A DNA stretch of 33,023 nt from Gemmatimonadota bacterium (GTDB taxonomy: Bacteria; Gemmatimonadota; Gemmatimonadetes; Longimicrobiales; Gaopeijiaceae): NCBI GenBank assembly GCA_007130605.1, contig SLSF01000231.1, forward strand, positions 1-33,023. Direction: 5' to 3'. Positions 28,321-28,950 of this stretch are shown here, piece after piece. The notes beneath the pieces were generated by a model, which searched no databases, had not been told where the DNA came from, and saw only the letters and a program-made list of their open reading frames with translations. The position numbers and the translations under genes are program-made. Each line of letters begins with the position of its first letter. The stretch's first letter is position 1.

Positions 28321-28374
28321 CCTCCGCGTCGGATCCCAACCTCCCCCACTTCCATGTCGACCCGGTCCTCCCTC

Positions 28375-28950
28375 ATGCGCGTGATCATCCATGCCGACGA
28401 ATCGTGTCTCGGCAACCAGTTCAAGGGCAGGGAGAACCCGGGAGGTGCAGCCGGGCTGGTGGAGTTCTGGGCAGGGGACCGGTGGAAGCGACGGGACTAC
28501 TGGATCTCCGAAGCCGGCACCACCAACAACCGGATGGCGCTGCGCAGTGCCATCGAGGGCCTCCGGGGGCTGAAGAAGCCCTGCGCCGTCCGCTTCGTCT
28601 CCGACTCCCAGTACCTGGTGAAGGGAATGCGGGAGTGGATCCATGGCTGGAAGCGCCGCGGATGGAAGCGGAAGGGTGGAGCCATCGAGAATGTGGAGCT
28701 CTGGCAGGAGCTCGACCGGGAGGCCGCCCGGCACGATGTGGAGTGGGAGTGGGTCCGGGGCCACGACGGAAATCCCCGAAACGAATATGTCGACCACCTC
28801 GCCGTGCGTGCGGCCACCGAGCAGGACCACTCGGGGGGATTCGTCGAATCGGGTTTCGAGCGCTGGCTCGAGAAGGAGCGGGAGGAGCGGGACCGGTACT
28901 TCGACTTCTTCGAGCACGCTCCTCCACCGTCTGAGCCGGACGAGGGCTGA
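28375..28950 (+). CDS. RNase HI-family protein with an altered catalytic site
   Basis: A 191-residue protein (198 if it starts at 28354) clearly homologous to RNase HI, which cuts RNA in RNA-DNA hybrids. Matches to E. coli RNase HI include SCLGN, TTNNRM, SDSQY, the basic protrusion WIHGWKRRGW, ENVELWQELD and WEWVRGH. Catalytic Asp8, Asp77, His130 and Asp140 are kept, but the second carboxylate (E. coli Glu48, in RMELMAA) is Ala55 (RMALRSA). The residue after Asp8 is Glu9, where most relatives have Gly (DGS to DES). An insertion of about seven residues follows SCLGN, and the C-terminal tail is acidic and about 45 residues long. No ribosome site is seen before either start. It converges on lipB. 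Confidence 0.88.
   Translation: MRVIIHADESCLGNQFKGRENPGGAAGLVEFWAGDRWKRRDYWISEAGTTNNRMALRSAIEGLRGLKKPCAVRFVSDSQYLVKGMREWIHGWKRRGWKRKGGAIENVELWQELDREAARHDVEWEWVRGHDGNPRNEYVDHLAVRAATEQDHSGGFVESGFERWLEKEREERDRYFDFFEHAPPPSEPDEG

Follow-up and report, generated by a model that had tools for sequence, protein, structure and literature searches.

The gene at positions 28375 to 28950 on the forward strand of the window, the stretch of 33,023 nucleotides analysed here, very probably encodes a member of the LC9-RNase H1 subfamily, the ordinary resident RNase HI of its Gemmatimonadota host, in which a glutamate beside the first catalytic aspartate (Glu9) stands in the role of Glu48 of the E. coli enzyme. 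The pairing of a lost Glu48 with a gained glutamate is an already published variant and is not new.

The rnhA-like gene is a + strand ORF of 191 amino acids that runs from the ATG at 28375 to the stop codon ending at 28950 (MRVIIHADESCLGNQFKGRENPGG...TTNNRMALRSAIEGL...VSDSQYL...WVRGHDGNPRNEYVDHLAV...), and the protein would be seven residues longer at its N-terminus if it started at another ATG in the same frame, at 28354. The type 1 RNase H family PF00075 matched the protein with 112.7 bits (E 2e-32, Pfam cut-off 25.8). No other Pfam family, RNase HII (PF01351) included, matched it at an E value of 0.001 or below. The NCBIfam equivalog model for ribonuclease HI gave 148 bits, which is under its cut-off of 160 bits and was counted against the assignment, although a score of this kind is to be expected of a diverged subfamily.

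In an alignment of 224 rows, positions 10, 11, 48, 70, 124 and 134 of E. coli RNase HI correspond to D, E, A, D, H and D in the window protein. The codons are those of Asp8 (28396-28398, equivalent to Asp10), the relocated Glu9 (28399-28401, at the Gly11 position), Ala55 (28537-28539, at the Glu48 position), Asp77 (28603-28605, equivalent to Asp70), His130 (28762-28764, equivalent to His124) and Asp140 (28792-28794, equivalent to Asp134). The initial annotation had aligned the protein to the E. coli enzyme by eye, and every Asp, Glu, Ala and His position that it named agrees with the computed alignment; the insertion after SCLGN and the C-terminal extension that it described are likewise real. 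Asp8, Glu9 and Ala55 are invariant in all 42 rows of one alignment of relatives (A1) and in all 57 rows of another (A3), which includes further rows, and the Glu/Ala change is therefore no sequencing slip.

The window protein shares with E. coli RNase HI (RnhA) the type 1 RNase H fold with its basic protrusion and the equivalents of D10, D70, H124 and D134, but has Glu9 and Ala55 where the E. coli enzyme has Gly11 and Glu48. Canonical DEDD enzymes carry their glutamate on helix A, at the Glu48 position, and the window protein with Ala55 is not one of them. The E. coli enzyme also lacks both added segments. The insertion of about five residues (28417-28431) is a loop of low confidence when the window protein is modelled with AlphaFold2, residues 15-17 having pLDDT values below 50. 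The C-terminal extension (28822-28947) includes an added helix at model residues 161-172; S159, F161 and W164, which lie in this extension, are near-invariant across the LC9-type clade.

The closest solved structure found by phmmer was PDB 4ibn (E 1.3e-54), and its alignment to the window protein shows ADESCLGN and NNRMALRS, i.e. the same Glu after the first Asp and the same combination of DES and RMAL motifs. The title of this entry, released on 2013-03-20, describes a type 1 RNase H that carries the type 2 active-site motif. The AlphaFold2 model, built from an alignment of the window protein with 56 of the 80 listed loci described below, had a mean pLDDT of 90.2 and a pTM of 0.86. The best match of the model was 4ibn both in Foldseek and in VIA-align (Z 23.9, 184 residues, 51% identity, 2.4 Å). 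The match covers model residues 1-188 and thus takes in the C-terminal extension, which aligns with the C-terminal part of 4ibn, whereas the other bacterial chains listed by VIA-align had Z scores of 18.5-20.4 over 135-143 residues.

From the shared name, 4ibn is presumably the structure of the LC9 paper (Nguyen et al. 2013, FEBS Lett 587:1418), the title of which names the LC9 motif DEDN. LC9 is 86% identical to the enzyme of a genome of the same class as the window (locus L173, genome G040), which makes it very likely, judging from this resemblance, that LC9 itself came from a Gemmatimonadota. The LC9 study reportedly found that the glutamate had left helix A for strand 1, its place in RNase H2, and that the enzyme still behaved as an RNase H1. 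The window protein resembles LC9-RNase H1 in its DES and RMAL pair, in a structural match that reaches into the C-terminal extension, and in that the nearest relatives of LC9 belong to the bacterial class of the window. It differs in having Asp140 where LC9 has Asn, so that the two active sites are not identical, and this too was counted against the assignment. As read from the alignment, the motif of the window protein is a DEDD in type 2 order and that of LC9 a DEDN. Among the papers searched, none pairs Gemmatimonas with RNase H1, Gemmatimonadota with ribonuclease HI, or 4IBN with RNase H; the wording DEDN, apart from a paper citing the LC9 work, gave two unrelated matches only.

In crystal structures of E. 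coli RNase HI, the side chains that bind metal B are those of Asp10 and Glu48; Asp10 also binds metal A, together with Asp134 and the carbonyl of Gly11 (PMC8900815). The metal site thus already includes residue 11, from which a carboxylate side chain could readily substitute for Glu48. In the window protein the metal-B glutamate of helix A is replaced by Ala, and we propose that Glu9 on strand 1, beside the first Asp, takes over its job in an arrangement like that of RNase H2. Glu9, by analogy with LC9, probably binds metal B, and the substrate is probably the usual one of RNase HI.

A census of relatives was assembled from 297 records, of which 278 matched the A1 profile; the 19 that did not (10 RNase HII loci and 9 distant canonical RNase H loci) were dropped. 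Exclusion of one further locus (L166), merging of 55 duplicates and addition of the LC9 and E. coli sequences left the 224 aligned rows. Positions 11 and 48 were both readable in 219 distinct sequences: 216 had Glu/Ala, three had Gly/Glu and none was mixed. Of the Glu/Ala rows, 213 show the full motif and two are fragments, while in the remaining one the first position is misread. The three Gly/Glu rows are E. coli RNase HI and the loci L143 and L144; a further locus, L142, has Glu at position 48 and, in a separate alignment (A2), TDG. Short RNase H proteins of three outlying families (f8, f10 and f11) have TDG and, where readable, AEY. The census included 187 of the 395 genomes of the phylum that were searched, a figure obtained by subtracting 71 database records from a total of 258; by the same subtraction, 180 of these genomes had Glu/Ala, two had Gly/Glu, one had Glu48 as its only readable position and four had fragments. 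All 80 database-record loci, the best 80 of 382 relatives retrieved by a contig scan, had Glu/Ala as well, but the scan patterns contained the motif itself and the scan is unable to count exceptions.

These data bear directly on the initial annotation, which had suggested that the loss of Glu48 is compensated by the Glu beside the first Asp and that the protein belongs to a distinct subfamily. The suggestion is supported by the same pair in 4ibn and by the absence of mixed sequences; the combination named there as contradicting it, DES with Glu retained in RMEL, occurs in none of the 219 readable sequences. The same counts weigh on the alternative that the loss of Glu48 has made the enzyme mainly Mn2+-dependent, with Glu9 being incidental. 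E. coli mutants at Glu48 and Asp134 have been crystallised with Mn2+, to go by the titles of the entries 1wse and 1wsg and of Tsunaka 2005. Glu9 and Ala55, however, occur together in all 216 readable sequences that have either, which is unexpected for an incidental residue, and 4ibn is described as having a type 2 motif. We consider such a metal switch improbable.

In RNase H2, Glu directly follows the first Asp, which is the type 2 motif. On the basis of this and of the title of 4ibn, the window protein resembles RNase H2 (RNase HII) in that Glu. RNase H2 is a separate family, and its profile PF01351 matched neither the window protein nor, in a profile search, anything else in the window's assembly (93% complete, 342 contigs). 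This lack of a match would suit a type 1 scaffold that does the work of RNase H2 on single embedded ribonucleotides by virtue of its type 2 motif. RNase HII was, however, found in 360 of the 395 genomes of the phylum, including both other sampled genomes of the genus, and with the assembly as incomplete and fragmented as it is, the absence is probably an assembly gap. PF11858 (DUF3378), which we take to be the N-terminal domain of RNase HIII, also had no match in the assembly. Furthermore, PMC4423430 describes RNase H1 as lacking JRNase activity and cites the LC9 paper, among others, for this, from which the type 2 motif appears not to bring type 2 substrate choice; the absence of JRNase activity fits ordinary H1 behaviour of LC9. 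Replacement of RNase H2 was rejected in view of the wide presence of RNase HII, and we regard a transfer of the RNase H2 task to the window protein as highly improbable.

The second, canonical RNase H gene for which the initial annotation had proposed a search was not found with PF00075 in the window's own assembly, where the single match is the gene at 28375-28950. An RNase H that has degenerated and become inactive would be in keeping with the replacement of one canonical catalytic residue. Against this, every full-length relative in the census, bar one misread row, retains the His and both the first and the third Asp, the protein is the sole PF00075 protein found in its genome, and its solved relative LC9 was named as an RNase H1. 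Inactivity is thus extremely improbable, and an active RNase HI with a relocated glutamate remains the reading that we prefer.

A relative of this RNase HI was present in 367 of the 395 genomes of the phylum. Nearly all of the 80 listed records, again the best 80 of 382 relatives, carry Gemmatimonadota names; four are filed under Gammaproteobacteria and look mislabelled. Three metagenome-assembled genomes with titles naming Gammaproteobacteria (loci L078, L080 and L087) have a gene of the Gemmatimonadota type, and the label of L078 is probably wrong. In the window, the gene lies between two neighbours that, from their translations, we take to be carA and lipB. This neighbourhood is conserved: among 143 flanked loci, in which some genomes are counted twice, a match to the carA protein was found in 102 and one to the lipB protein in 78. 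The RNase HI gene is a chromosomal housekeeping gene.

Origin from a phage or plasmid was also considered and rejected. All tblastn matches in 314 phage records and 740 plasmid records were below 60% identity, and four of the five that were inspected have TDG with Glu at position 48; the translation of the fifth (L300) starts past the first Asp and keeps RMEL. A scan of viral contigs with A1 gave one match of 30%, which was excluded. Three genomes of the window's own family (G164, G226 and G264, with loci L144, L143 and L142, respectively) have a canonical RNase HI as their sole PF00075 match. There the canonical gene looks to have replaced the LC9-type gene, and the two types may be interchangeable. 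The canonical proteins of L142 and L144, the two of these loci with ORFs listed, have an N-terminal stretch with paired cysteines.

The fourth active-site residue behaves differently from the Glu/Ala pair. At the Asp134 position, the 213 full-motif sequences of the LC9-type clade have Asn in 152, as in LC9, Asp in 49, the window protein among these, and His in 12, and the sequence around this site aligns cleanly in the rows printed. Asn is therefore not a defining residue of the clade. The window protein has the Glu after the first Asp, the Ala at the Glu48 position and the 4ibn fold with its extension, but its fourth residue, Asp140, is not the Asn of LC9; by its aligned residues, it is a member of the Glu/Ala clade without being a DEDN enzyme. 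On a FastTree phylogeny of 217 rows (the 213 and four canonical sequences), the state at this position changed at least 24 times, in contrast to the Glu11/Ala48 pair, which is unmixed in every row. Canonical RNases HI, mostly from viral contigs, had Asp in 62 and Asn in six of the 68 rows readable at every position, a weak control given that the scan patterns favour Glu48. In E. coli RNase HI, the mutants D134N and D134H are reported to keep activity. Both have been crystallised, as the titles of PDB 1kvc and 1kvb indicate.

The window RNase HI reveals neither a new enzyme nor a new mechanism; rather, the variant for which a compost metagenome yielded a structure in 2013 turns out to be the standard RNase HI across the Gemmatimonadota genomes examined. 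The sole fresh point is the fixed Glu/Ala pair next to a floating fourth residue. It is possible, although we hold this only tentatively and with more doubt than belief, that selection on the metal-A residue was altered by the relocation of the metal-B glutamate to strand 1, with Asn, Asp and His wandering there while the pair stays fixed. If this were true, the phylum would amount to a natural experiment on how the two metal sites interact epistatically, and the window protein would represent the rarer, all-carboxylate state. The Asp, Asn and His variants that occur naturally at the metal-A position, all against an unchanging background with the relocated glutamate, would be useful for probing the role of this residue.
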